Below are positions 22,776-49,484 of a stretch of 64,000 nucleotides of DNA, piece after piece. The notes below the pieces were generated by a model, which saw nothing but the letters and a program-made list of their open reading frames with translations, was not told the DNA's origin and ran no database searches. This DNA is from Gemmatimonadaceae bacterium (lineage in GTDB: Bacteria; Gemmatimonadota; Gemmatimonadetes; Gemmatimonadales; Gemmatimonadaceae). Positions within the stretch are counted from its first letter, which is position 1. Every line of letters starts with the position of its first letter. Position numbers and translations under genes: made by a program. The stretch spans positions 186,001-250,000 of the forward strand of contig JBBEBQ010000018.1 of NCBI GenBank assembly GCA_040882285.1, given 5' to 3'.

Positions 22776-24478
<1,703 letters not shown>

Positions 24479-24526
24479 CTATCTGGAGCGCTCTTTCCCC
24501 GTAGAAAGGGATAGCTGGCGACGGTT

Positions 24527-25492
24527 CTAGGCGGGACGTGAGCCGACGAGAAGGATTCCTGCGGGTATCGGTCTGCGCCGAATCGACGGTGCCCAAGCTT
24601 CGAACATGGACCGCGCGTCCCACTGGAGCCTCAGCCGCTGGATGACCTCTTCGGGGATCGCACGAAAACACAATGCCGTGACAATGCGATCGGGATAGTT
24701 CGCGGGATCGTCTAGATCGTCCGAGAGGTGGCATCCTGAGTATGGACGCCTGGATCCACAGCCAGCACAAAGTTCCGATGGCGACTGAAAGAACAGGCGC
24801 GCTGCTGGTTCATGAATTACTTGTGGGCCGGGCCATCGGCCGAACGCTTCTGCGTACGCTTGCCGTGCGACCCACAGCGAGATCGCTCCCATGCGGTCCA
24901 ACAACGATGGGTCCTCCCACCCCTCGTCGGCCTGGTCAAACGCGCATATGCTACCATCGAAGTAGCTGTGCCGGGGCCCGATCCAGCGACCGAACTGGAC
25001 ATCGGAATCCCACCGCGCCCAAGACGCTATCCTCCCGGGGATAAACGTCGGTATCAGCGTAAGAACTGTGGCAGACATCCAGAGTCTGGGGATCGGCCTC
25101 ACGTTGATCGTCAGCCAGATGCCCGACGAGGCGACCTCAGTTCGAGCTTGCGGATAAGCTGAAGCCACCTCGTCGAGCTCCCTCACCATCCGGTCACTCA
25201 GCTGCCTGAAGATCGGTGCGGCTTGATCGGGCGAACTGGGTCTTTCGGTGGTACAACGTCCGGCGGGCCCTTCCCGTGATCGGGTTGAGGATCCCTCGGA
25301 CCGTCTCGCTGGTCCGGCGCCATCTGCGCTCACCTCCTTGGCGCTTCCCGCCACGTTCGCGACGGTCGACTGAGCGGGTACCAGTCGACCACCTGAGGCA
25401 ACTCCTGGCCAGACATCATTGTCTAGCCCCTCACCAATCACGCGAAGGATGTCTCGCCCGGTTGGCGCGTCTGAACCCACTAAGGCTGCCAC
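24527..25492 (-). CDS. Predicted E2-like (ubiquitin-conjugating fold) protein with C-terminal Cys cluster
   Basis: 321 aa. Residues about 90-230 read like a bacterial E2: helix IFRQLSDRMVRELDEVASAY, a strand region, then HSYFDGSICAF with candidate His175 and catalytic Cys183, GWEDPSLLDRMGAISLW and FGRWPG. The motif order (His, a few residues, G-x-I-C, then W about 9 later, then helix) matches E2 enzymes. Behind it lies CAGC...SGCH (Cys242, 245, 254, His255), a possible zinc knuckle. The N-terminal 90 residues are low in complexity. GTG at 25492 is supported by a promoter placed for leaderless transcription. Divergent from the XRE gene. Family assignment is from motif reading only. Confidence 0.5.
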   Translation of the reverse strand: MAALVGSDAPTGRDILRVIGEGLDNDVWPGVASGGRLVPAQSTVANVAGSAKEVSADGAGPARRSEGSSTRSREGPAGRCTTERPSSPDQAAPIFRQLSDRMVRELDEVASAYPQARTEVASSGIWLTINVRPIPRLWMSATVLTLIPTFIPGRIASWARWDSDVQFGRWIGPRHSYFDGSICAFDQADEGWEDPSLLDRMGAISLWVARQAYAEAFGRWPGPQVIHEPAARLFFQSPSELCAGCGSRRPYSGCHLSDDLDDPANYPDRIVTALCFRAIPEEVIQRLRLQWDARSMFEAWAPSIRRRPIPAGILLVGSRPA

Positions 25493-25592
25493 TCGTCAAT
25501 AGTACCTCTAATCCAGCGATAACGCAAGCAAGTACTACTTGTCAGTATTTTTGGCATTGACGAAGTCCTTTTGCCATGTATACTGTCCGACG
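25492..25592. promoter_or_regulatory. Divergent leaderless promoters around a central palindrome
   Basis: Plus strand: -35 TTGACG (25557-25562), 16-bp spacer, -10 TATACT (25579-25584); predicted start about 25591, at the GTG of the XRE gene (25592). Minus strand: -35 TTGCGT (25527-25522), 17-bp spacer, -10 TACTAT (25504-25499); predicted start 25492, the first base of the E2-like GTG. Between them is the 13-nt palindrome CAAGTACTACTTG (25529-25541), a likely operator for the XRE protein. Both transcripts would lack a leader. Confidence 0.55.
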
Positions 25593-25945
25593 TGAGTTCA
25601 TCGAAGCCGCAGCCCTTGCTCAGAGTTTTCGGCCAAAAACTGGCAAAGGCGCGTCACCGAGCCGGCCTATCTCAGGAAGAGCTGGCTCGACGCCTCAAAT
25701 TGGCCCGGTCTTCAGTTAGCAATCTCGAGCTTGGGCGACAGAGGCCCAACCTGGAACTTCTGTACGCTGCCGCCGCCGTATTGGGAATTCGGCCAGCGGC
25801 ACTCCTTCCAGATCCCAAAACGGTTTTTGTCCCTTGGAGCGATAGCGTGGAGTTGCACGTCGCGCCGGATGAGAGACGTATTACGGAATCCGATCGAAGA
25901 CAACTTGTGAGCTTAGTTGCCGAAGTGACGGGACGAGACGCGTAG
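25592..25945 (+). CDS. XRE-family HTH transcriptional regulator
   Basis: 117 aa. The helix-turn-helix is clear: LAKARHRAGLSQEELARRLKLARSSVSNLELGRQRPN-like segment at about 15-55 (SQEELARRLK turn, then SVSNLELGR recognition helix). A short C-terminal region (ELHVAPDERRITESDRRQLV) follows. An in-frame TTG at 25571 lies upstream of the predicted transcription start, so I prefer GTG at 25592. Two bases separate it from the ImmA-like gene; XRE plus ImmA/IrrE pairs regulate mobile or defence genes in many bacteria. Probably controls the divergent promoters. Confidence 0.88.
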   Translation: MSSSKPQPLLRVFGQKLAKARHRAGLSQEELARRLKLARSSVSNLELGRQRPNLELLYAAAAVLGIRPAALLPDPKTVFVPWSDSVELHVAPDERRITESDRRQLVSLVAEVTGRDA

Positions 25946-25947
25946 CG

Positions 25948-26493
25948 GTGGCGCGAATTCGGAAAGCGCGTGCTGCAGCGCGATCGGTGCTAAGCAAATC
26001 TCCAAAGGGAATCCCGACCGATTTGGATGCCATCGCCGCGAACCTTGGCGCGAGTGTAGAGTCCCGCGACGACCTCGGACCAAACGTGGCGGGTGTTCTT
26101 ATTCCGCTTCCCGAGCGCGGACGCTGGGTAATCGCCGTTAACGCGAATGACCCGGAAAGTCGCCGTAGGTTCACAATCGCTCACGAAATCGCGCACATCA
26201 TTCTGCACGGATACACCGCTCCGCATGCCGATGGGTCATTCCAGCTACGTATGCGCAATGAGGAGTCCGCCACTGGAACGGTTGACGAGGAAATCGAAGC
26301 GAATCAATTTGCCGCTGAATTGTTACTGCCCGCTGATCTCCTCCTAAAGGACGTGTCAAGCGTTGTCCTAGAGCACGAGTCCAAGGCGTCGTCGAGTGCA
26401 GGTTTTGACGATACACTGGCGAAACTTGCGGCCAAATACGGAGTTAGCCGTCAAGCGCTCGCGCTTCGCCTGTCTGCGCTGGGGGTGCTATAA
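25948..26493 (+). CDS. ImmA/IrrE-family metalloprotease (M78)
   Basis: 181 aa. Zinc site HEIAHIILHG gives the HExxH ligands His79, Glu80 and His83; the downstream EEIEANQFAAELLLP supplies the third ligand and the family's hallmark helix. Starts with GTG right after the XRE gene. In ICEBs1, ImmA cleaves the repressor ImmR after DNA damage, so this pair may form a damage- or infection-triggered switch for the island. That role is inferred from the family; the target repressor would be the preceding XRE protein. Confidence 0.88.
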   Translation: MARIRKARAAARSVLSKSPKGIPTDLDAIAANLGASVESRDDLGPNVAGVLIPLPERGRWVIAVNANDPESRRRFTIAHEIAHIILHGYTAPHADGSFQLRMRNEESATGTVDEEIEANQFAAELLLPADLLLKDVSSVVLEHESKASSSAGFDDTLAKLAAKYGVSRQALALRLSALGVL

Positions 26494-27501
26494 GTGGCAG
26501 GCCAACGGACCGTGACCGCTGGGGCCACGGACGCGGCTCCACCATACGTACATCGCGACTATCCGGAGTTCAGCTGGTCGAGCAGTAGAGAATTGCTGTT
26601 CGAAAGATGTCGGCGCCGTTATTTCTGGCACTATTACGGTTCGTCGAACGGGTGGGAACGGACATCCAGCGACGTAGCCAAAACGGCATGGCGGCTGAAG
26701 AATCTCACATCATTCGATGTTCAGGTCGGGACCGAGGTCCACGAACGCGCTAAGGATTATGTCGCGTCGGTTCTGGATGGCCGACCCATACCGGTCGCCT
26801 CGCTCATTGAAACGACGATGAAAGCCCTAGACGAGTTGTATGCGCGCTCCCAAGACCTAGAGTCGTTTCAGGCGCGTCCAAAACGCCATCCCGTCGCGTA
26901 CGGAGCCTATTACAAGCGCGGGGTCCTTGAGAATCAGCTCCTACGGGCTCGGGCTCGGGCCGTGAAATGTATCGACAATCTCGTTTCGTCCGCTATTTGG
27001 GACGAGGTAGGCAGGGCTGGGAAAGAAGGAACAGTAATGGTTGAACCGCTATCCACGTTCCAAGTTGGCGGCATTACCGTGTACGCCGTACCAGATCTCG
27101 TGTATCTGACCAATAACGAATGGACTATCGTCGATTGGAAAACTGGTGTTGCGGATGAGGGAAGCGATCAGCTCGCGGTTTACGGTCTCTATATCCGCGA
27201 GGCGTTGAGTTTGACGAATCCAACCAGCCATTATCCCACGAAGCTCGTTCACCTTCAAAGCGGGAAGGTTGACGTTGTCCGGTTCACGGATTCTGAGATA
27301 CTCGCCGTTCGAACGAGGATAGAGTGCAGTGCGGCCGACATGCGCGACATGTTAGTAGATATACTCACAAATCGGCCTAAGGCCATGAGTGGCTTTCAGC
27401 TCACCGACGACCCCAGTGAGTGCCGGATTTGTCCTTTCTTCCAGCTTTGCGAGCCTGAGCTCGTTTTGCTGGGCCGCGCAGGGGTCCGACTAAAGTTCTA
27501 A
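26494..27501 (+). CDS. Cas4/AddB-like PD-(D/E)XK nuclease with Fe-S cysteines
   Basis: 335 aa. All motifs of the RecB-nuclease/Cas4 class are visible: His83 in VGTEVHERA, Asp201 in YAVPDLVYL, Asp214 and Lys216 in TIVDWKTG, and Gln226/Tyr230 in DQLAVYGLY. Four cysteines are placed for an iron-sulfur cluster: Cys39 (FERCRRRYFW) and Cys310, 313, 319 in ECRICPFFQLC. No helicase domain. GTG start lies directly at the end of the ImmA gene (no gap), so it is coupled to the XRE-ImmA transcript. There are no CRISPR or cas genes here, so it is more likely a stand-alone defence or repair nuclease. Confidence 0.85.
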   Translation: MAGQRTVTAGATDAAPPYVHRDYPEFSWSSSRELLFERCRRRYFWHYYGSSNGWERTSSDVAKTAWRLKNLTSFDVQVGTEVHERAKDYVASVLDGRPIPVASLIETTMKALDELYARSQDLESFQARPKRHPVAYGAYYKRGVLENQLLRARARAVKCIDNLVSSAIWDEVGRAGKEGTVMVEPLSTFQVGGITVYAVPDLVYLTNNEWTIVDWKTGVADEGSDQLAVYGLYIREALSLTNPTSHYPTKLVHLQSGKVDVVRFTDSEILAVRTRIECSAADMRDMLVDILTNRPKAMSGFQLTDDPSECRICPFFQLCEPELVLLGRAGVRLKF

Positions 27502-27693
27502 CCATCCGAAGATTCGGTCCATGTGAAACCGGCCAATGGCGGCCGCTGCCACATATGTGGATGGCGCCTGAGATGCGCGGGCCCGCAGCTCAGACGAACC
27601 CTTTCTTGAGGGTTCACCGATCCATCGGCATTCTTTCGCTATGGATTGCACCGTTTTGGCTCGGACACTTGGGGCGCGCGCCGTAAATTGTAG
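27502..27693. other. Gap of 192 nt inside the island
   Basis: Separates the Cas4-like gene from the methyltransferase-nuclease gene. It contains short inverted segments (CTTGAGGGTTC region near 27605) but no convincing gene, tRNA or clear sigma-70 promoter. AT content rises before the downstream GTG, so a separate promoter for the restriction-modification gene is possible. Confidence 0.4.
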
Positions 27694-30216
27694 GTGACTA
27701 TGACGTTTGCATCTACGGCCGCATTTACCGCGTCGCACGACGCTGTCAGTGTTGCGGAATCCATACAAGCCGAAATCGTGCGGGCGACGCGGCGGTCCGC
27801 GCGCGCAACTCTTGGTCAGTTCTTCACGCCGGCCGGGGTTGCCGAGGTACTCGCTTCTCTTAGCGAAAAGAGAGGAGCCCAACTTCGCATGCTGGACCCC
27901 GGCGCCGGCGTAGGAATGTTGATCGCCGCCTGGGTTTCGCACGTGATACGCGGCGACACGGCGCCAGAAGCGATAGATGTAACTGCGTTCGAAGTCGACC
28001 AGCACCTCCAGGGAAGTCTGAATCGAGTCCTCGAAACGTGTCACAGGGCGTGTAACGACGCGGGGATAAGGTTTTCATATTCGATCCGACTCGAGGATTT
28101 CGTCTCAGCCGCCGTCGAGGCCTTGTCGGGGGGATTGTTCGCCTCGGAGATCGTGCCATTCGATTGTGCCCTCTTGAATCCGCCGTACAAGAAAATCAGG
28201 AGTGACTCCGTCGAACGTACTCTCTTGAGCGGCGCAGGAATTGAGACAAGTAATCTCTACACGGCTTTCGTCGCCCTCAGCATGAGGCTCCTAGCTGAGC
28301 GCGGCGAGTTGATGGCAATCACTCCGCGGTCATTCTGTAATGGCCCTTACTTCCGCACGTTTCGAGGAGACCTCCTTGGCTCAAACAACCTGACTCATCT
28401 CCACGTTCTTGATTCCAGATCCGCTGCATTCGGACAAGATGGCGTTCTGCAAGAGAACGTCATCTTCCGCGTGGAGCGCGGAACTCCGCAGAGGTCACAG
28501 GTTTCGGTTGAATGGAGCGCCGGCGGAACGTCAGAAGAAATCCACCGCCGAAACGTGGCATTCGACCAAGTTATCCAGCCTACTGATCCAGACAATGTGA
28601 TCCACATTACTCCCGACGAATGGGACACCACCGTGAGTCGCGTAGTTGAAAAGCTCTCGAGTTCTCTCGCTCAACTCGGGCTCGAGGTTTCAACCGGGCG
28701 CGTAGTTGAGTTTCGGGCTCGTGAGCACTTGCGTTCCGTTCTGGGCCCGGAAAGCATTCCTCTCATTTATCCGCGGCACATATACGGACAGTCCGTTCGG
28801 TGGCCCCATCCGCGCGCCAACAAGCCCAATGCCTTGGCGCTGTCACCTGCATCAGCGGAATTGACGAATCCGGGTGGTGTCTACGTAGTCGTCAAACGTT
28901 TCACGGCAAAGGAAGAGAACCGACGATTGGTCGCAGCAGTTGTGACACCGGATTCCGTACCCGGCGACAGAGTAGCTTTCGAGAATCACGTGAACTACTT
29001 CCACCGAGCTGGGAGAGGGATTCCCAAGACGCTGGCAGTGGGTCTCGCTGCATTTCTAAATTCGACTATCGCGGATCGTTATTTTCGCCAGTTCAGCGGC
29101 CACACGCAGGTGAACGCTACAGATCTTAGGAAGTTGCCGTATCCGAGCGCCGCGCAGTTGGACAGCATCGCAACGCAGATGCCAATTCCGTCAACGACGC
29201 AAGAGCAGCTTGACGATATAGTCGAAGAGGTAATCATCGCCGTGAAGAAGCCGCGAAAACGTGGGTCCAAAGCGATCAAGGCGCGCCTTGTGGAAGCGTC
29301 CGCCGCCCTTAAGGCGCTGGGGCTACCCAAGGACCAACAGAACGAGCGTGCGGCACTAACCCTTCTGGCCCTTCTGGGGATGCGATCGGGAGATCAATGG
29401 ACGGCAGCAAAGAATCCGGTACGCGGCGTGACGCCGATTATGGGCTTTGTGGCTGAACATTACGACAAGCACTGGAAGCCGAACACACGCGAAACTATCC
29501 GGCGTTTCACGCTTCATCAGTTCGAGGCGGCCGGCGTTGTCGTGGCGAATCCAGATAAGCCCGATCGCGCGACGAATAGTCCGGCGTACTGTTATCAAGT
29601 TCCGCCAGTTGTCCTACGCCTTCTAAAGACCTTAGGAACGTCGCGGTGGGACGCGAATCTTCGGAAGTATTTAGCAGCCTCGGACACCCTTGTTGCGAGA
29701 TATGCTAGAGAGCGTGATATGCGTCGCTTGCCGCTGACTCTCCGCGACGGCCTGGAGATATCACTATCGCCGGGGGGACAGAACGAGCTGATACGGCAGA
29801 TCGTCGAGGATTTCTGCCCCCGCTTCACGCCGGGTGGCCGCGCACTCTACGTGGGCGACGCTGACAAAAAATGGGGCTACTTCGATCGCGATCGCCTTGC
29901 AGAGCTCGGCGTTGCCGTCAAGGCCCACGGGAAGATGCCGGATGTGGTCGTTCACTTCGAAAAAATGAACTGGTTAGTACTGGTGGAGGCAGTTACCAGT
30001 CACGGTCCCGTCAATCCGAAACGACGGGCAGAGCTGAAGAAGCTGTTTGCCACTTCAAAAGCGCCGCTCGTGTTCGTGACGGCGTTTATGACTCGGCAGG
30101 CACTGAAGAAATTCCTCGGCGACATTGCATGGGAAACCGAGGTATGGGCGGCGGATGCGCCCACTCATCTCATTCATTTCAACGGCGAACGGTTCCTGGG
30201 GCCGTACGACAGTTGA
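27694..30216 (+). CDS. Single-chain adenine methyltransferase fused to BsuBI/PstI-type restriction endonuclease
   Basis: 840 aa. The N-terminal part is an N6-adenine methyltransferase: LGQFFTPAGVAEVLASL, motif I MLDPGAGVGML (68-74) and motif IV NPPY (162-165), then a target-recognition-like region to about 450. The C-terminal 125-250 residues match BsuBI/PstI endonucleases: ALYVGDADKKWGYFD (from 717), HGKMPDVVVHFE and NWLVLVEAVTSHGPV, with the acidic residues of the PD-(D/E)XK core. In the named enzymes M and R are separate genes; here they are one polypeptide. GTG at 27694 or ATG at 27700 may be the start. Codon use is less GC-rich than neighbours outside the island. Confidence 0.85.
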   Translation: MTMTFASTAAFTASHDAVSVAESIQAEIVRATRRSARATLGQFFTPAGVAEVLASLSEKRGAQLRMLDPGAGVGMLIAAWVSHVIRGDTAPEAIDVTAFEVDQHLQGSLNRVLETCHRACNDAGIRFSYSIRLEDFVSAAVEALSGGLFASEIVPFDCALLNPPYKKIRSDSVERTLLSGAGIETSNLYTAFVALSMRLLAERGELMAITPRSFCNGPYFRTFRGDLLGSNNLTHLHVLDSRSAAFGQDGVLQENVIFRVERGTPQRSQVSVEWSAGGTSEEIHRRNVAFDQVIQPTDPDNVIHITPDEWDTTVSRVVEKLSSSLAQLGLEVSTGRVVEFRAREHLRSVLGPESIPLIYPRHIYGQSVRWPHPRANKPNALALSPASAELTNPGGVYVVVKRFTAKEENRRLVAAVVTPDSVPGDRVAFENHVNYFHRAGRGIPKTLAVGLAAFLNSTIADRYFRQFSGHTQVNATDLRKLPYPSAAQLDSIATQMPIPSTTQEQLDDIVEEVIIAVKKPRKRGSKAIKARLVEASAALKALGLPKDQQNERAALTLLALLGMRSGDQWTAAKNPVRGVTPIMGFVAEHYDKHWKPNTRETIRRFTLHQFEAAGVVVANPDKPDRATNSPAYCYQVPPVVLRLLKTLGTSRWDANLRKYLAASDTLVARYARERDMRRLPLTLRDGLEISLSPGGQNELIRQIVEDFCPRFTPGGRALYVGDADKKWGYFDRDRLAELGVAVKAHGKMPDVVVHFEKMNWLVLVEAVTSHGPVNPKRRAELKKLFATSKAPLVFVTAFMTRQALKKFLGDIAWETEVWAADAPTHLIHFNGERFLGPYDS

Positions 30217-30278
30217 GCGTCGCTCTGGATTCGCAAGCGTGCGAATAAACCGGCCCGCGGGATGGTTTTCCTGAGGCG

Positions 30279-30393
30279 CTAGTCCAGGGTTAGCACGTAC
30301 TGCCCGGTCTCACCCGCCTCGAACGACGACGCCGCGATAACGTACCTCCCCCGCGGCAGCATTCCCGACAGCCGCGCGTCGGTGCGAAGCGGC
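30279..30393 (-). pseudogene. 3' remnant of the lipoprotein gene found intact at 31716
   Basis: Translates as TDARLSGMLPRGRYVIAASS and continues to a natural stop TAG at 30281, nearly identical to the last 36 residues of the gene at 31716-32159. It breaks off at about 30393, where the mcmA remnant begins. Differences from the intact copy are largely at third codon positions. Confidence 0.85.
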
Positions 30394-30519
30394 GCGGACG
30401 GATGCTAATCGGATGCCACTCATTCTCGATTGCCCGCGCGCGTACTGCACGCTGTATGAGATCAGGGCTGCGTTGGAGGACGTGTTCGGGGGCGTGCCGA
30501 GAGCCCGTTTTTTCTAGCG
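30394..30519 (+). pseudogene. 3' remnant of mcmA
   Basis: About 125 nt homologous to 24354-24478: MPLILDCPRAYCTLYEIRAA and then LEDVFG, compare MPLILDCARAYCTLYEIRAA in mcmA. One extra G after the VFG codons shifts the last residues. Most other changes are synonymous. It is joined head-on to the lipoprotein remnant, so the order is flank-right then flank-left, the reverse of the normal order around the island. Confidence 0.85.
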
Positions 30520-31545
30520 ATGCAAGGAATACGAAGTTTCTTCAGGGTCCGCGGCCGAGAGTGTGTCAGCCCATTTCATAAGTGTTCTAGCGGCGCCGAG
30601 CACCGCAGCAACTTGTTCTCTCTCGAGGCTAGATTTAGATGAGCCCACTGCCCGCTGGTTCAGGTTACCGTGGGCAAGCCTTCCTCGTTCCTTCCAGAGT
30701 CGCGTGATCCATTCCCCAGAATCCGGTTCCTCTTGAAAAAAGTCCCGTCGCAACTGCAGCGGCGCAACCACTCGGAGGTTTCGAAGCAGGTCGCTAGAAC
30801 TGATGAGTCGTATTACCCGCCGCCGCGGATTTCCGGACCGGCTCAAAGCTCGCGAGAGGCCTTCCCTAACCGCGAGCTCACACGCCATGGCTACTAACAA
30901 GACGGCGAGCTCGTCCTGCTGGTCGGATATCGAGGTAAAAACTGCATCAAAGTATAAGTCGAGAGAGAGGGGTGAGTCGCAACCCTCCCCGGCGTTACGA
31001 GCAAGAGCAGCGAACAACTCCGAACTAAGCAATGTGTCTTCGACGCCCATCGTCGCTTCGATCCTCATCGACAAGGCCATCGACTGATTCGTCTGGATTC
31101 GCTCGCCGCGTCCGTTGATATCCATTGTGTTCCGTGGGTTGGATTCATATTCGGCGTGCGGTCGAGTGATCCACCACTGATTCGTGGCAGCGCGAATGAG
31201 CCTTAGGAATCGGCCAACAAACGCGTCGGCCGCGTTCCGGCCGGCCACTTCATCCCCGTAGACGTCAACTCGTACTGCGTCTGCGCGAATTCGGTCCGCG
31301 GGAACCTGCGGGGTGATCGTGACCGAAGGACCGCCCTGAGGTTGGGTTGTAAACGGCCTTCGGGGGACTCTAGACAGGTCAACCTGCGCGATTGGGGGCA
31401 CTTCAGTTTTCCGGTTCTGAAACGGACCGTAGACTGTCCCGCGGTGGCCATCCAACACGAGCGGAATTGGCGGAAACTCCTCCTTGGTACGATGGATGTC
31501 GAACGGAAACAAATAGAAATGCGCCTTGCCCGCAGGTGTTGCCAC
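30514..31545 (-). CDS. HEPN-like domain protein, cargo B of the island
   Basis: 343 aa, GTG start. The N-terminal part (HFYLFPFDIHRTKEEFPPIP) is unrecognised. The C-terminal half is helical (ELAVLLVAMACELAVREGL) and carries Arg287-x4-His292 in KERGRLAHGNLN, the Rx4H motif of HEPN RNases often seen in abortive-infection proteins. The stop lies within the mcmA remnant, so the gene abuts the junction. It stands alone and convergent to mcmA like the E2-like gene of cargo A. HEPN assignment rests on one motif plus helix pattern. Confidence 0.5.
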   Translation of the reverse strand: MATPAGKAHFYLFPFDIHRTKEEFPPIPLVLDGHRGTVYGPFQNRKTEVPPIAQVDLSRVPRRPFTTQPQGGPSVTITPQVPADRIRADAVRVDVYGDEVAGRNAADAFVGRFLRLIRAATNQWWITRPHAEYESNPRNTMDINGRGERIQTNQSMALSMRIEATMGVEDTLLSSELFAALARNAGEGCDSPLSLDLYFDAVFTSISDQQDELAVLLVAMACELAVREGLSRALSRSGNPRRRVIRLISSSDLLRNLRVVAPLQLRRDFFQEEPDSGEWITRLWKERGRLAHGNLNQRAVGSSKSSLEREQVAAVLGAARTLMKWADTLSAADPEETSYSLHR

Positions 31546-31715
31546 TCGATGTTCATCCGCGTGTTCGGGGGAGTTTCAATATAGACGAGGAGATGCGCAC
31601 TGAAATCATGGAGCGCCTCGGTATTTGCAACTCTCCATCCTTACGTAAAGTCCAAGGGTTACACGCCGAAATGGGCCAATCGTTTAACGCTATATGCTCT
31701 ATGCCATCTTTCGCC

Positions 31716-32159
31716 TCAATCAACCGTCAGCACGTACTGCCCCGTCTCTCCCGCCTCGAATGACGACGCCGCGATGACGTACCGGCCCCGCGGCAGGGTC
31801 CCCGACAGCCGCGCGTCGGTATCGAAGTCGTTGAAGTCGTCGTTCTCGTACAGCAGCTCGCGTGTGTCCCAATCGTAGATCGCCAGGTACGCGTCGAAAT
31901 CGAACGACTCGAGATCGATGATCAGAAAGTCCTGATCGTTGCGATGGTCGAAGAAGTACATGTCGGTGTACGCGCCCTGCACCCGGCAGTCGCCGCTCGA
32001 CAATGTGCCGGCGCGCGCGTCGCCCGCGAAGATGTCGCGCAAGTCGCAACCCATGAACGTCCGATAGCGGGGATCGGTGGCGTAGTCGCCGCACGCCAGG
32101 AGCAGCGCGACGGGACCGGCCAGCAACGCTCCCCTGAGGGACCGCTGAATGTTCTTCAT
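31716..32159 (-). CDS. Small lipoprotein with PPC-like beta-sandwich domain
   Basis: 147 aa. The signal peptide ends in LLLACGDY, a lipobox. The C-terminal about 90 residues resemble pre-peptidase C-terminal (PPC) domains: DFLIIDLESFDFDAYLAIYD, LPRGRYVIAASSFEAGETG, ending in YVLTVD. Function unknown; such domains sit on secreted hydrolases. It is the right-hand flank of the island, between cargo B and mcmB, and its 3' end is repeated as a remnant at 30279. Confidence 0.75.
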   Translation of the reverse strand: MKNIQRSLRGALLAGPVALLLACGDYATDPRYRTFMGCDLRDIFAGDARAGTLSSGDCRVQGAYTDMYFFDHRNDQDFLIIDLESFDFDAYLAIYDWDTRELLYENDDFNDFDTDARLSGTLPRGRYVIAASSFEAGETGQYVLTVD

Positions 32160-45677: not shown

Positions 45678-46955
45678 ATGCCCTCGTTCAGCAAAATCGC
45701 CGCTCTTGCTGCCTGCCTGGCGGTAACCGCCGCCGGCGTGGATGCCCAAGCCTTCCGGGACTCGGTGACGGTCATCCGGGCCGCCCGCATGCTCGACGTA
45801 GGCACCGGCAACATCGTCCAGAACCCGGTCATCACGGTCACCGGCGACCGGATCAGCTCCGTGACCAACTCGGCCGTTCCCGTCGGCGCGCGCGTGATCG
45901 ACCTCGGCGACGTGACTCTGCTGCCCGGGCTGATCGACGCGCACACGCACCTGACGAGCAACCTCGAGGCGGGCTCGTACGTGCGGCCCGCGCGCGAGAC
46001 CGACGCCGACGTCACCGTGCGCGGCGTCAGGAACGCGCGGCTCATGCTTCAGTCCGGGTTCACCACGGTACGAGACGTCGGATCAGCGGGCTTCGCCGAC
46101 GTCGCGCTCATGCGGGCGTCGGACGCCGGGTGGATCGACGCGCCGCGGATCGTTCCCGCCGGACACTCGCTCGGGATTACCGGCGGACATTGCGACCATA
46201 CCGGATGGAAGCCCGGCGTGCTCGAGGGCTCGACCGTGACGGGAATCGCCGACGGCCCGGACGAAGCCGTGGAAGCGGTACGCCAGCAGCTCAAGTACGG
46301 CGCCAAGGTCATCAAGATCTGCGCGACAGCCGGAGTCCTGTCCTTCGAGGAGAGCGTCGGGGCGCAGCAGTTCTCCGACGCGGAGATGCGCGCGATCGTC
46401 GAGGAAGCCGCCCGCCACGGCGTGAAGGTCGCGGCGCACGCGCACGGGACGCAGGGAATCATCGCCGCGGTGCGTGCCGGCGTAGCGTCGATCGAGCACG
46501 GCTCGATGCTCGACGACGAAGCGATCAGCCTGATGAAGCAGCGCGGGACCTACCTGGTGCCGACGACCTACCTGGCGGATTCGATTGATCTGCGAATTCT
46601 TCCGCCGCTGCTCCGATCGAAGGCGGAGTCGATCCTGCCGATTGCGCGGGCGAACGTCACGCGCGCGATCAGGGCGGGAGTCAAGATCGCCTTTGGCACG
46701 GACGCTGCCGTCATCCCGCACGAGCATGCCATCCGGGAGTTCAAGACGCTCGTTGACCGCGGGATGACCCCGCTCGGCGCTATCCAGGCAGGAACTATCA
46801 ACGCGGCCGATCTGCTCGGCACGACCGACCGCGGCAGACTCACGCCCGGACTCCTGGCCGACATAATCGCGGTCCCCGGCAACCCGCTGGCGGACATTCA
46901 GGCGCTGGAGCGCGTGACATTCGTGATGAAGGGAGGGCGGATTTACAAACGGTGA
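45678..46955 (+). CDS. Secreted metal-dependent amidohydrolase (Xaa-Pro dipeptidase/imidazolonepropionase-like)
   Basis: 425 aa from ATG at 45678, which begins a signal peptide MPSFSKIAALAACLAVTAAG ending near VDA-QAF. Metal ligands: HxH in LLPGLIDAHTHLTSNLEAG, the bridging Lys in KYGAKVIKICATAG, His in KVAAHAHGTQG and IEHGSM, and Asp in IAFGTDAAVIPH. Likely periplasmic; substrates of this subgroup are dipeptides or N-acyl amino acids, not decidable here. An upstream in-frame TTG (45648) would spoil the signal. Confidence 0.87.
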   Translation: MPSFSKIAALAACLAVTAAGVDAQAFRDSVTVIRAARMLDVGTGNIVQNPVITVTGDRISSVTNSAVPVGARVIDLGDVTLLPGLIDAHTHLTSNLEAGSYVRPARETDADVTVRGVRNARLMLQSGFTTVRDVGSAGFADVALMRASDAGWIDAPRIVPAGHSLGITGGHCDHTGWKPGVLEGSTVTGIADGPDEAVEAVRQQLKYGAKVIKICATAGVLSFEESVGAQQFSDAEMRAIVEEAARHGVKVAAHAHGTQGIIAAVRAGVASIEHGSMLDDEAISLMKQRGTYLVPTTYLADSIDLRILPPLLRSKAESILPIARANVTRAIRAGVKIAFGTDAAVIPHEHAIREFKTLVDRGMTPLGAIQAGTINAADLLGTTDRGRLTPGLLADIIAVPGNPLADIQALERVTFVMKGGRIYKR

Positions 46956-46969
46956 CTGCCGGCACCACA

Positions 46970-47108
46970 GGGGATGGTGACTGGTCTTAGGTCGTACGTG
47001 ATAGTTAACAACCCTGTGATCGGTGAAGGGTTTCGGGTAACCAACAACCGGTCACCCGTTGCCCGTCGTTGACCAGAACCCATCACCTACAACCAGTCAC
47101 CCATCCCC
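46970..47108. repeat. 139-bp inverted-repeat element upstream of rplU
   Basis: GGGGATGGTGACTGGT at 46970-46985 pairs with ACCAGTCACCCATCCCC at 47092-47108 (one bulged base). The interior holds further GTCACC/GGTGA words and GTTAACAACC/GGTAACC segments, so it is related in style to the GTGACTA repeats. It takes up most of the 219-nt gap between the amidohydrolase gene and rplU. Confidence 0.65.
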
Positions 47109-47174
47109 GTTGTGCAAAACCCAAAACCTCACTATTTTTAAAGGCTGCACGATTTCCTAACCGCAACTGGCCTC

Positions 47175-47492
47175 ATGTCTTACGCAATCATCCGCACCGG
47201 CGGCAAGCAGTTCCGTGCCGAGCCGGGCAAGAGCATTCGCATCCCGACCGTCGAAGGCGAGCCGGGAAGCAAGATAAAGTTCGATGACGTGATCCTCGGC
47301 ACCGACGGCGACACCGTCAAGCTCGGCACGCCGGCGCTCAAGGGCGCGGCCGTCACGGGCGAGATCGTCAAGCACGGTCGCGCCGACAAGATCGTCGTCT
47401 TCAAGTTCAAGCGCCGGAAGAACTACGCGCGCAAGCAGGGACACAGGCAGGGCTTCACCGAAGTCCGCATCAACGACATCAAACTCGGCTGA
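47175..47492 (+). CDS. rplU: 50S ribosomal protein L21
   Basis: 105 aa. [20 protein letters not shown], the Lys/Arg-rich [20 protein letters not shown] and the family end [19 protein letters not shown]. First gene of the usual rplU-rpmA pair, 12 nt ahead of rpmA. The 60 nt before it are AT-rich (CTCACTATTTTTAAAGG) and probably hold its promoter. obgE, often next, is absent. Confidence 0.97.
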
Positions 47493-47504
47493 TCGAGCGA
47501 ACAT

Positions 47505-47774
47505 ATGGCACATAAAAAGGGCGTAGGCTCGTCCCGCAACGGACGCGACAGCAATCCGCAGTACCGCGGGATCAAGAAGTTCGGCGGCGAGCGCGTCGTC
47601 GCGGGGAACATCATCGTGCGCCAGTGCGGCACGAAGTGGCACCCGGGACGCAACGTCGGCCTAGGCACCGACTTCACGATTTACTCGCTGATCGACGGCG
47701 TGGTGAAGTTCGAGCACAAGAACAAGACGCGCTTCAAGGTGAGCGTGTACCCCGAGAAAGAGACCGCCGCGTAA
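47505..47774 (+). CDS. rpmA: 50S ribosomal protein L27
   Basis: 89 aa. Starts [20 protein letters not shown], the flexible N-terminal arm that reaches the peptidyl transferase centre, followed by [20 protein letters not shown] and [16 protein letters not shown]. No N-terminal extension of the type cleaved in Firmicutes. Followed 15-20 nt later by a strong terminator. Confidence 0.97.
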
Positions 47775-47789
47775 AAGCGAGCGAACAAA

Positions 47790-47821
47790 AAAGCCCCCGC
47801 CGGCATCGGCGGGGGCTTTTT
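47790..47821. terminator. Bidirectional intrinsic terminator between rpmA and the symporter gene
   Basis: Perfect 10-bp stem GCCCCCGCCG / CGGCGGGGGC (47793-47802 with 47807-47816) around loop GCAT, flanked by A-run on the left and T-run on the right, so it can serve both convergent genes. Confidence 0.95.
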
Positions 47822-47840
47822 GTTGACTGCTATCCGGCGG

Positions 47841-49484
47841 TTACCTGTATCGGGCGAGCTCCCCCCGCTTGTACTTGCCCCAGTACACATCCAGCTCGTC
47901 CTTCACCTTGCCGTGCAGGAAGTACACACCCAGCAGGTTGGGAAACGCCATTCCCAGAATCATCAGGTCGCCGAAGTTCAGGACCTGGGTGGACGTTATG
48001 ATCGAGCCGAGGAAGACGAAGATGCAGAACAGGATGCGGTAGATCTGCGACGTCCCGTCGCCGAACATCCACGCCCAGCACCGCTCCCCGTAGTACGACC
48101 AGGAGATCATCGTCGAGTACGCGAACATCATGACCGACGCGGAGAGGATGTACGGGAACCAGCTCAGGTGCTCGCCCATGGCGCGTGATGTCAGCGCCGC
48201 GCCCTTGCTGTTGGCGACGAGATCGGCGTAGGCGGGATTGTTGTAGGCGCCCGTGATGACGATGACCAGGGCGGTCATGGTGCAGACGACCACCGTGTCG
48301 ATGAACGGCTCGAGCAGCGAGACGATTCCTTCCCGTACCGGGTACTCGGTCTTCGCCGCCGAGTGCGCGATCGCGGCCGAACCGGCGCCTGCTTCGTTGG
48401 AGAATGCCGCTCTCTGGAACCCCACCACGAGCGTTCCGATGATTCCGCCATACGCCGCATCGGGCGAGAACGCCTGCTGCACGATCGCGCCGAACGCCGC
48501 CGGAATTGCCCCGGCATTCACGATCAGAATGTAGATCGAGGCGAGTACGTAGATGCCGATCATGAACGGAACGAGCTTCTCGGTCACATGGGCGATGCGC
48601 CGGATGCCGCCGATGATCACGATCCCGACCAGCACGGCCATGAACAGCCCGTATATCCACGGGTTCGCCGCGAGGAACGGCGCCTGCTCCTGGATCGCGT
48701 TCAGCGACTGGTTGACCTGGAACGCGTTGCCGCCGCCGAATGAGCCGCCGATGCAGAGGATCGCGAACATGACGGCCAGCACCTTGCCGAACTTCGCCAT
48801 GCCTTTTTCCGCGAGGCCCTTCGACAGATAGAACATCGCGCCGCCCATGATCCGGCCGTCGGGGCGGACTTCACGATATTGCTGGCCGAGCGTGACCTCC
48901 GTGAACTTCGAGGTCATGCCGATCAGCCCCGCGATGATCATCCAGAACGTGGCGCCCGGACCGCCGATGCTGATGGCGATCGCGACGCCGGCGATGTTTC
49001 CGAGGCCGACGGTAGCGGACAGCGCCGTGGTCAGCGCCTGAAAGTGCGAGACCTCGCCGGTCTGCCGTGGATCGGTGTATTTCCCGGCGGTCACGGTCAG
49101 CGCGTGCCCGAACGCGCGGAAGTTGATGAACCCCATCCGGAACGTGAGGAACACCGCCGCGACCACCAGCCAGAACACGACCAGCGGCAGCGTGTGCGTG
49201 TCGTCCCAGAACAGGATGTCGTAGAAGAACACGGCGCCGATGACGGAGTTCACCCGGCCCATGGCGCGGTCCGCCGCTGCCATGAAGCCTGTCGCCGGCT
49301 CGGTGGCCGCTTCCGGTTGCTGACCCTCGATGGGGAGCGGGGCGGGCAGCGAGCCTGCGTCGACCGCGGTGGTCTCCTGGGCCGACAGCGAGCTCCAACT
49401 TCCCGCCGTCGCGGGCGCGATGGCGGTGAGCGCCAACAGGGCGGACAGGACCAACAGTACACGTGCCTTCGAGCGAAGCATCAT
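47841..49484 (-). CDS. Sodium:alanine (amino acid) symporter, AGCS family
   Basis: 547 aa inner-membrane carrier. An N-terminal signal-like helix (LRSKARVLLVLSALLALTA) precedes a linker, then about ten transmembrane helices. Family signatures: TALSATVGLGNIAGVAIAIS, GPGATFWMIIAGLIGMTSKF, GGAMFYLSKGL and AAFSNEAGAGSAAIAHSAAK. The start ATG at 49484 is followed by a second Met; the open frame further upstream is leader sequence. The cleavable-looking N-terminal extension is longer than in the best-known AGCS members. Confidence 0.93.
   Translation of the reverse strand: MMLRSKARVLLVLSALLALTAIAPATAGSWSSLSAQETTAVDAGSLPAPLPIEGQQPEAATEPATGFMAAADRAMGRVNSVIGAVFFYDILFWDDTHTLPLVVFWLVVAAVFLTFRMGFINFRAFGHALTVTAGKYTDPRQTGEVSHFQALTTALSATVGLGNIAGVAIAISIGGPGATFWMIIAGLIGMTSKFTEVTLGQQYREVRPDGRIMGGAMFYLSKGLAEKGMAKFGKVLAVMFAILCIGGSFGGGNAFQVNQSLNAIQEQAPFLAANPWIYGLFMAVLVGIVIIGGIRRIAHVTEKLVPFMIGIYVLASIYILIVNAGAIPAAFGAIVQQAFSPDAAYGGIIGTLVVGFQRAAFSNEAGAGSAAIAHSAAKTEYPVREGIVSLLEPFIDTVVVCTMTALVIVITGAYNNPAYADLVANSKGAALTSRAMGEHLSWFPYILSASVMMFAYSTMISWSYYGERCWAWMFGDGTSQIYRILFCIFVFLGSIITSTQVLNFGDLMILGMAFPNLLGVYFLHGKVKDELDVYWGKYKRGELARYR

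Follow-up and report, generated by a model that had tools for sequence, protein, structure and literature searches.

Genes at the locus

A 64,000-nucleotide (nt) stretch of a Gemmatimonadaceae genome (GenBank assembly GCA_040882285.1, contig JBBEBQ010000018.1, positions 186,001 to 250,000; hereafter the window) was analyzed for a group of five genes, which encode an E2-like protein, an XRE-family repressor, an ImmA-type peptidase, a Cas4-like nuclease and a methylase-endonuclease fusion. The original prediction had read the five as a candidate composite defense system. All five open reading frames (ORFs) that it had proposed were present (Table 1), and the region had the lower GC content claimed for it, 56 to 61% compared with 65 to 70% outside. 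Judged from their neighborhoods in other genomes, the first three genes are a recurring bacterial module and the other two are companions. A further ORF, which very likely encodes a small protein, lies hidden in the +1 frame of the E2-like gene.

Table 1. Features of the locus, in window coordinates
Feature	Position	Strand	Basis
E2-like protein, main frame, 321 amino acids (aa) from GTG	24527..25492	-	ORF, homolog alignment, AlphaFold2, PDB matches
Nested +1-frame ORF inside the E2-like gene, 41 aa, MAPDQRDGPRDPQPDHGKGPPDVVPPKDPVRPIKPHRSSGS	25198..25323	-	Homologs, codon-position switch, hidden Markov model (HMM)
Shine-Dalgarno (SD) sequence AGGAGG of the nested ORF, 9 nt 5' of its ATG	25333..25338	-	Sequence; homologs
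Shared divergent control region	25493..25570		Pattern matches only
XRE-family repressor, CapH-like	25571..25945	+	Pfam HTH_3 5e-13; PADLOC capH 2.7e-12
ImmA/IrrE (M78) metallopeptidase, CapP-like, HEIAH intact	25948..26493	+	Pfam M78 1.3e-22; PADLOC capP 1.2e-29; PDB CapP 7t5t 4.9e-4
Cas4/AddB-like PD-(D/E)XK nuclease, predicted iron-sulfur (Fe-S) protein (C39, C310, C313, C319)	26494..27501	+	PDDEXK_1 1.7e-13
Fused N6-adenine methyltransferase and BsuBI/PstI-type restriction endonuclease	27694..30216	+	Pfam, PADLOC
Scar between two cargo units	30280..30511		Degenerate copies of both flanking-gene 3' ends
Second cargo, 343-aa protein, outside the conserved module	30514..31545	-	No family match in Pfam, NCBIfam, PADLOC or PHROGs

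Predicted fold of the E2-like protein

The E2-like protein had no match in Pfam, NCBIfam, PADLOC or PHROGs. It consists of an N-motif (about 25453-25376), a disordered linker, the E2-fold domain, a SEC-C-like cluster of Cys residues (C242, C245 and C254) and a C-terminal tail. In an AlphaFold2 model of a full-length relative, the N-motif was ordered and linker residues 37 to 81 were disordered, followed by the E2 part. The AlphaFold2 model of the protein itself was confident (pLDDT 81.5). When it was compared with known structures by VIA-align, nearly all of the top 50 rows were E2, UEV or RWD folds, with Z scores of up to 8.6 (Tsg101 UEV, 8.6; Serratia CdnG-E2, 8.5; Cap2, 7.5), and the protein is accordingly modeled as having the E2 (UBC) fold.

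H175 and C183 (H79 and C87 in domain numbering) were invariant among 35 homologs, and the T and N following the His were conserved at 90% or more. In alignments of 35 to 38 homologs, the residues H, C and W and those of the Cys cluster were invariant; among the 35, a G was also invariant and the stretch HTN...DGS(I/V)C was nearly so. The putative E2-type active-site residues, a Cys with an upstream His, are intact in the predicted protein. Both the modeled fold and these residues bear out the earlier E2-like assignment. The invariant C-terminal Cys pattern resembles SEC-C, and the Pfam SEC-C model gave no match to it.

A conserved three-gene module

Relatives of the E2-like gene were collected by a profile search; the first alignment was too diverse for a scan of the collection, and a narrower one worked. 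The profile recovered 45 loci in the genome contig collection, and together with three plasmids, the window and G053, G403, G352 and G269, these amounted to 53 distinct places, with L005 and L012, which share one contig, counted once. They belong to Gemmatimonadota, Flavobacteriales and alpha-, beta-, gamma- and deltaproteobacteria. A weak match with two internal stops (G038, L004) was dropped as chance, and no relatives were found in viral contigs. Fifty loci, with genes and upstream sequence, were usable; two at a contig edge (L006 and L034) and a gene remnant (L055) were left out.

The neighbor of the E2-like gene was either XRE plus ImmA or a WYL regulator in 48 of the 50 usable loci, a tally obtained by reading the outputs, with M78 and WYL identified by Pfam. 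XRE and ImmA were two genes in 21 loci and one fused XRE-ImmA gene in 20; L097 had XRE and a distant HExxH protein, and a WYL protein of about 300 aa occupied the position in the remaining 6. The regulator was divergent from the E2-like gene in all loci but L020. At L019 (279-4589), the E2-like gene is divergent from what appears by eye to be an OmpR-type response regulator gene, with a 754-aa ORF beyond, possibly representing another kind of regulator.

Across 41 E2-like loci, no gene family other than those of the module recurred in diverse loci, and no recurrent E1, ubiquitin-like protein (Ubl) or JAB partner was found nearby. Among 117 neighbor proteins of 200 to 620 aa, the sizes covered by the family scan, there was one E1-E2 of a cyclic-oligonucleotide-based antiphage signaling system (CBASS). 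These 117 proteins included integrases, conjugation genes, type I and II restriction-modification (R-M) genes, Fic, AbiH and one CBASS set, and the context of the module is thus mobile and defense rich. Many loci were closely related (Mesorhizobium, Rhodobacterales), and a Rhodobacterales group shared further downstream genes. Directly 3' of the E2-like gene, L008 (8882-9097) and eleven other Rhodobacterales-type loci share a conserved short ORF, which in Sulfitobacter encodes about 72 aa.

A probable gene nested in the linker of the E2-like gene

The linker of the E2-like protein resembled an out-of-frame translation, and a conserved ORF was then found in the +1 frame. This ORF measured 41 to 63 aa across loci, with the peptide consensus MxxxxRxDPQPDHGKGPPDGKGRPxDxGRPVxPHRSSAQ and some His-rich variants. 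It was present in every intact locus examined and missing only from the remnant L055. An HMM of the peptide matched at 3.3e-14 in its own genome. Significant matches in 35 genomes occurred at one place per genome and the others were at chance level, indicating that there is no stand-alone copy elsewhere in these genomes. The peptide had no family in Pfam or NCBIfam.

A 4-mer of the SD sequence preceded the nested ATG in 31 of 32 loci, mostly at a distance of 7 to 9 nt, and a 5-mer did so in 27 of the 32, compared with 3.4% of random windows. In three locus sets, nucleotide differences before and after the overlap fell mostly at the third position of the main frame, and those inside it fell mostly at the third position of the nested frame (0.73, 0.57 and 0.56), so that the wobble pattern changes frame exactly at the nested ORF. 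Sequence identity was 0.61 for the nested peptide, 0.32 for the main frame in the overlap and 0.46 for the E2 domain. Not one of the 32 overlaps had a main-frame stop, although three synonymous-codon models predicted 114, 68 or 50 (with a minimum of 35 under the strictest); the third frame had 42 stops against 34 expected. Although ORF calling itself favors an open main frame, loci with a stop would still appear as E2 ORFs without the N-motif. The single such ORF was L051, where the E2 frame is disrupted and the nested ORF is intact.

Because of the wobble switch, the conservation of the peptide and the absence of main-frame stops, both frames are very likely coding in the overlap. In the model of the full-length relative, the overlap was disordered and the N-motif ordered. 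The variable C-terminus of the nested peptide argues against a classical Ubl. In a Rhizobium etli plasmid record, the nested frame is annotated as a 47-aa hypothetical protein and the E2-like gene is started downstream of it. Annotation mostly misses the nested gene or, led by it, truncates the E2-like gene.

Control region and regulators

The E2-like and XRE genes diverge from a shared control region, as had been proposed. Between the two starts lies a single perfect palindrome, CAAGTACTACTTG (25529-25541), which is a candidate operator. A good pattern match to a sigma-70-like promoter, TTGACG-16-TATACT (25557-25584, + strand), is directed to XRE; because it reaches into the TTG-start form of this gene, XRE may begin at the GTG at 25592. 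No operator common to the loci was found, the palindromes being different between loci or absent.

The two regulatory genes were confirmed as an XRE/ImmA pair by Pfam (HTH_3 and M78) and by the PADLOC capH and capP models. An XRE helix-turn-helix protein and an ImmA-type HExxH peptidase adjoin the controlled promoter, which is the arrangement of CapH+CapP. CapH+CapP and CapW/BrxR are two kinds of controllers of immune operons that respond to single-stranded DNA (ssDNA) (PMC13373217; PMC9122588). By homology to CapH and CapP, we infer that the switch senses ssDNA and that ImmA cleaves the repressor.

Acquisition of the island

In the congeneric genomes G001 and G002, mcmA is followed by a small lipoprotein gene and then by the B12-binding subunit gene, with no island between them. 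In the window, 7.24 kb (24479-31719) separate mcmA from the lipoprotein gene. The first part of the scar (30280-30383) is a degenerate lipoprotein gene 3' end, 89% identical to 31726-31820, and the second (30384-30511) is a degenerate mcmA 3' end, 86% identical to 24345-24452. The simplest reading of this arrangement is an insertion hotspot holding two tandem cargo units, each edged by pieces of the flanking genes. Unit 1 comprises the five genes, and unit 2 (30512-31719) carries one gene of unassigned family (P0006), whose C-terminus, LAHGNL, is reminiscent of HEPN proteins. No integrase was recognized among the island genes.

Because unit 1 is bounded by flanking-gene pieces and the island is absent from the two congeners, the five genes are judged to have entered this genome jointly, as a single insertion unit beside mcmA, whatever their function. 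The original prediction is corrected on three points: the island continues to 31719, the fusion gene has its own 192-nt leader and the nested frame had been overlooked. Elsewhere in the window, a second GC dip (about 0.61 to 0.63) occurs in the backbone at 46000-49000.

Nuclease and restriction-modification companions

The GTG start of the nuclease gene directly follows the ImmA stop codon. Residues D201, D214 and K216 and the four Cys were invariant in five sequences, and an Fe-S cluster is predicted. The fusion protein contained the Pfam domains RE (PF06616, 3.9e-60), HTH (PF17728, 2e-45) and Eco57I (3.7e-9) as well as an NPPY motif, and it matched the full-length PADLOC fusion model PDLC03359 at 3.9e-249. 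The domain matches and invariant nuclease residues agree with the identities first given to both proteins.

The nuclease family was present in 19 of 395 genomes of the phylum. In 15 of its neighborhoods, an E2-like or R-M relative was never beside it, and ImmA was nearby in one; no nuclease relatives were found in viral contigs or plasmids. At L064 (8087-12618), a nuclease relative stands beside a second ORF and a 571-aa protein that by eye looks like DrmB/DUF1998, possibly another defense context. Fused BsuBI/PstI proteins occurred without the other genes in three relatives, and two-gene R-M forms occurred on many plasmids.

When the nuclease and the fusion were searched by blastp, neither was found beside the E2 module in any of the 45 genome-contig loci. 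G269, from another Gemmatimonadota family, has a two-gene BsuBI/PstI R-M convergent with the E2-like gene of an E2/XRE/ImmA module (L098, 7078-9712), an adjacency that may reflect clustering in defense islands. Judged from these neighborhoods, the nuclease and the R-M gene are separate modules, mostly found alone elsewhere, and with its own leader the fusion need not be part of the XRE operon. The original prediction had looked to conserved neighborhoods with at least three of the families and had named separate occurrence everywhere else as evidence against it. Repeated co-occurrence was found for E2-like, XRE and ImmA, which travel together in most known loci; the nuclease and the fusion were not among the genes that do so and were mostly apart, and the proposal of one five-gene system is not supported on this point.

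Proposed function and alternatives

We think it reasonably probable that the locus is acquired defense-type cargo whose conserved core is a DNA-damage-switched module yielding an E2-like protein and a nested peptide. The conservation of the module, the E2 fold, the dual coding and the acquisition as one unit are shown at the sequence level, and the regulators and context suggest a role in defense. The CapH-like XRE repressor would keep the divergent promoter off until phage infection or damage produced ssDNA and the CapP-like ImmA peptidase cut the repressor. Derepression would then give two products of one overlapping gene, an E2-fold protein and a small disordered peptide rich in P, G, D, R and H, encoded in the +1 frame of the linker. 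As regards effector chemistry, the role of the peptide and phage protection, we infer the following. The E2-like protein would most likely be a defense or stress effector acting through its invariant Cys on a target in the host or the phage, with no dedicated adjacent E1; its action could be E1-less conjugation, that of a toxin or that of a noncatalytic binder. The nested peptide could be its partner, substrate or inhibitor. A more specific proposal is offered tentatively, as possible rather than probable: a self-contained two-product system, in which an E1-less E2-fold enzyme and an overprinted disordered partner (substrate, modifier or antidote) are controlled by interchangeable ssDNA-responsive regulators and have spread via defense islands from Gemmatimonadota to Proteobacteria.

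Several points weigh against this interpretation. Foldseek alone gave no match below an E value of 0.001, the best being UbcH8 at 0.05. UEV and RWD domains of the E2 fold can be noncatalytic binders, and a catalytic E2 role without an E1 or Ubl would be unusual. L019 has a response regulator instead of the usual switch, and L054 has no recognized regulator. About half of the loci are from Rhodobacterales and Rhizobiales and so are not independent events, and the 32-locus set used for dual coding has only near-copies removed. The defense neighbors are varied, which leaves room for a role of the module in a general stress response or in the service of a mobile element.

An alternative that we regard as unlikely is a toxin-antitoxin system, with the E2-like protein (or the nested peptide) as the toxin, XRE-ImmA as repressor and antitoxin and the nested peptide perhaps as a built-in antidote always made together with the toxin. 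The ImmA and XRE-ImmA proteins matched antitoxin and RmrA models, and the module is compact, comprising two or three genes, and occurs in the company of plasmid and integrase genes. A precedent is PD-lambda-2, in which an Xre-peptidase fusion beside a toxin-like gene gives phage defense in Escherichia coli (PMC9519451). However, the genes are divergent rather than in one operon, and the replacement of XRE-ImmA by WYL in six loci is more readily explained by a transcriptional switch that can be exchanged than by a protein antitoxin.

It is also improbable that the E2-like protein is a noncatalytic, UEV- or RWD-like binder, for example an XRE-ImmA regulator or an adaptor that uses the SEC-C-like Cys cluster. 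The best VIA-align matches, the Tsg101 UEV domains, lack the catalytic Cys, there was a weak sequence match to an RWD protein, and no E1 recurs nearby; the invariance of His, Gly and Cys in the H...G-S-(I/V)-C pattern, and the near invariance of HTN, argue for a catalytic site instead.

That all five genes form one composite defense system, in which DNA is attacked by the R-M enzyme and the nuclease, with the E2-like gene held in reserve until the damage switch activates it, is very unlikely. The single insertion unit, the abutting nuclease start and ImmA stop and the R-M pair adjoining the module in G269 are consistent with it, but neither companion stands beside the E2 module in the 45 genome-contig loci and both families mostly occur without the others. 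The five genes as one unit were thus rejected as a general rule and kept as a low-weight alternative in view of the insertion unit and G269.

Least probable of all is that the +1-frame signal marks a programmed frameshifting site in the E2-like mRNA: SD-like sequences can stimulate frameshifting and the N-motif ends shortly before the overlap, but the SD-like sequence leads to an ATG in 31 of 32 loci, mostly 7 to 9 nt away, the main frame is open across the whole overlap, a single product would not need both features and the nested frame has a gene annotation of its own in the R. etli record.

Under the preferred reading, a damage-switched E2-like module, two features are surprising: the hidden overlapping gene, and an E2 that stands alone under a damage-type switch. 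For long-conserved dual coding in bacteria, the nested gene is a strongly supported example, and it predicts a hidden small protein. The lone E2-like gene is under the same kinds of controllers as CBASS, BREX (bacteriophage exclusion) and Bub operons, and because it is conserved across phyla, absent from the family libraries searched and under damage-type controllers, it is a good candidate for an unrecognized immune or stress effector.

Comparison with known systems

A literature search on E2-like proteins with XRE/ImmA or SEC-C found nothing relevant. To our knowledge, an E1 or a cyclase accompanies most of the E2-based systems known from bacteria. The island was found to have neither an E1 nor a cyclase gene, and no BREX or DISARM genes, as had been predicted.

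The module shares with CapH+CapP an XRE repressor and an ImmA-type peptidase at a controlled promoter, with WYL (CapW-like) alternatives at the same position in six loci. It differs in that the putative switch, often a fused XRE-ImmA, would control a single E2-like gene containing a nested ORF and not CBASS, Bub or BREX. Control by CapW or CapH+CapP has been reported for 219 of 544 Bub operons (PMC13373217). The module resembles the Bub and Bil operons in that an E2-fold protein is part of an immune-type bacterial operon; it differs in that no adjacent E1, Ubl or JAB was found, it has a SEC-C-like Cys cluster and a nested peptide, and its family is absent from Pfam and NCBIfam. A Pfam scan of the island proteins detected no Bub/Bil E1, Ubl or peptidase genes.

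The closest bacterial fold matches were the E2 proteins of type II CBASS (CdnG-E2 of Serratia marcescens, 8yjy, and Cap2; Z scores of 8.5 and 7.5), and in these systems too an E2 acts in defense, CdnG-E2 being described as acting without an E1. The E2 module differs in having no CD-NTase or cyclic-nucleotide effector; no CD-NTase match was obtained among the six island proteins in Pfam, NCBIfam, PADLOC or PHROGs.

For the companions, the nuclease resembles AddB/Cas4-like Fe-S nucleases in its invariant D/D/K and four Cys (best PADLOC match, Aga_Cas4-like_Nuc, 3e-19), but it lies directly behind XRE-ImmA, with no CRISPR-Cas or Argonaute gene among the island proteins. The R-M gene has the complete methylase and endonuclease domains of BsuBI/PstI type II systems, here in one fused chain rather than the two genes usual on plasmids, and this fused form is already represented by a PADLOC model.

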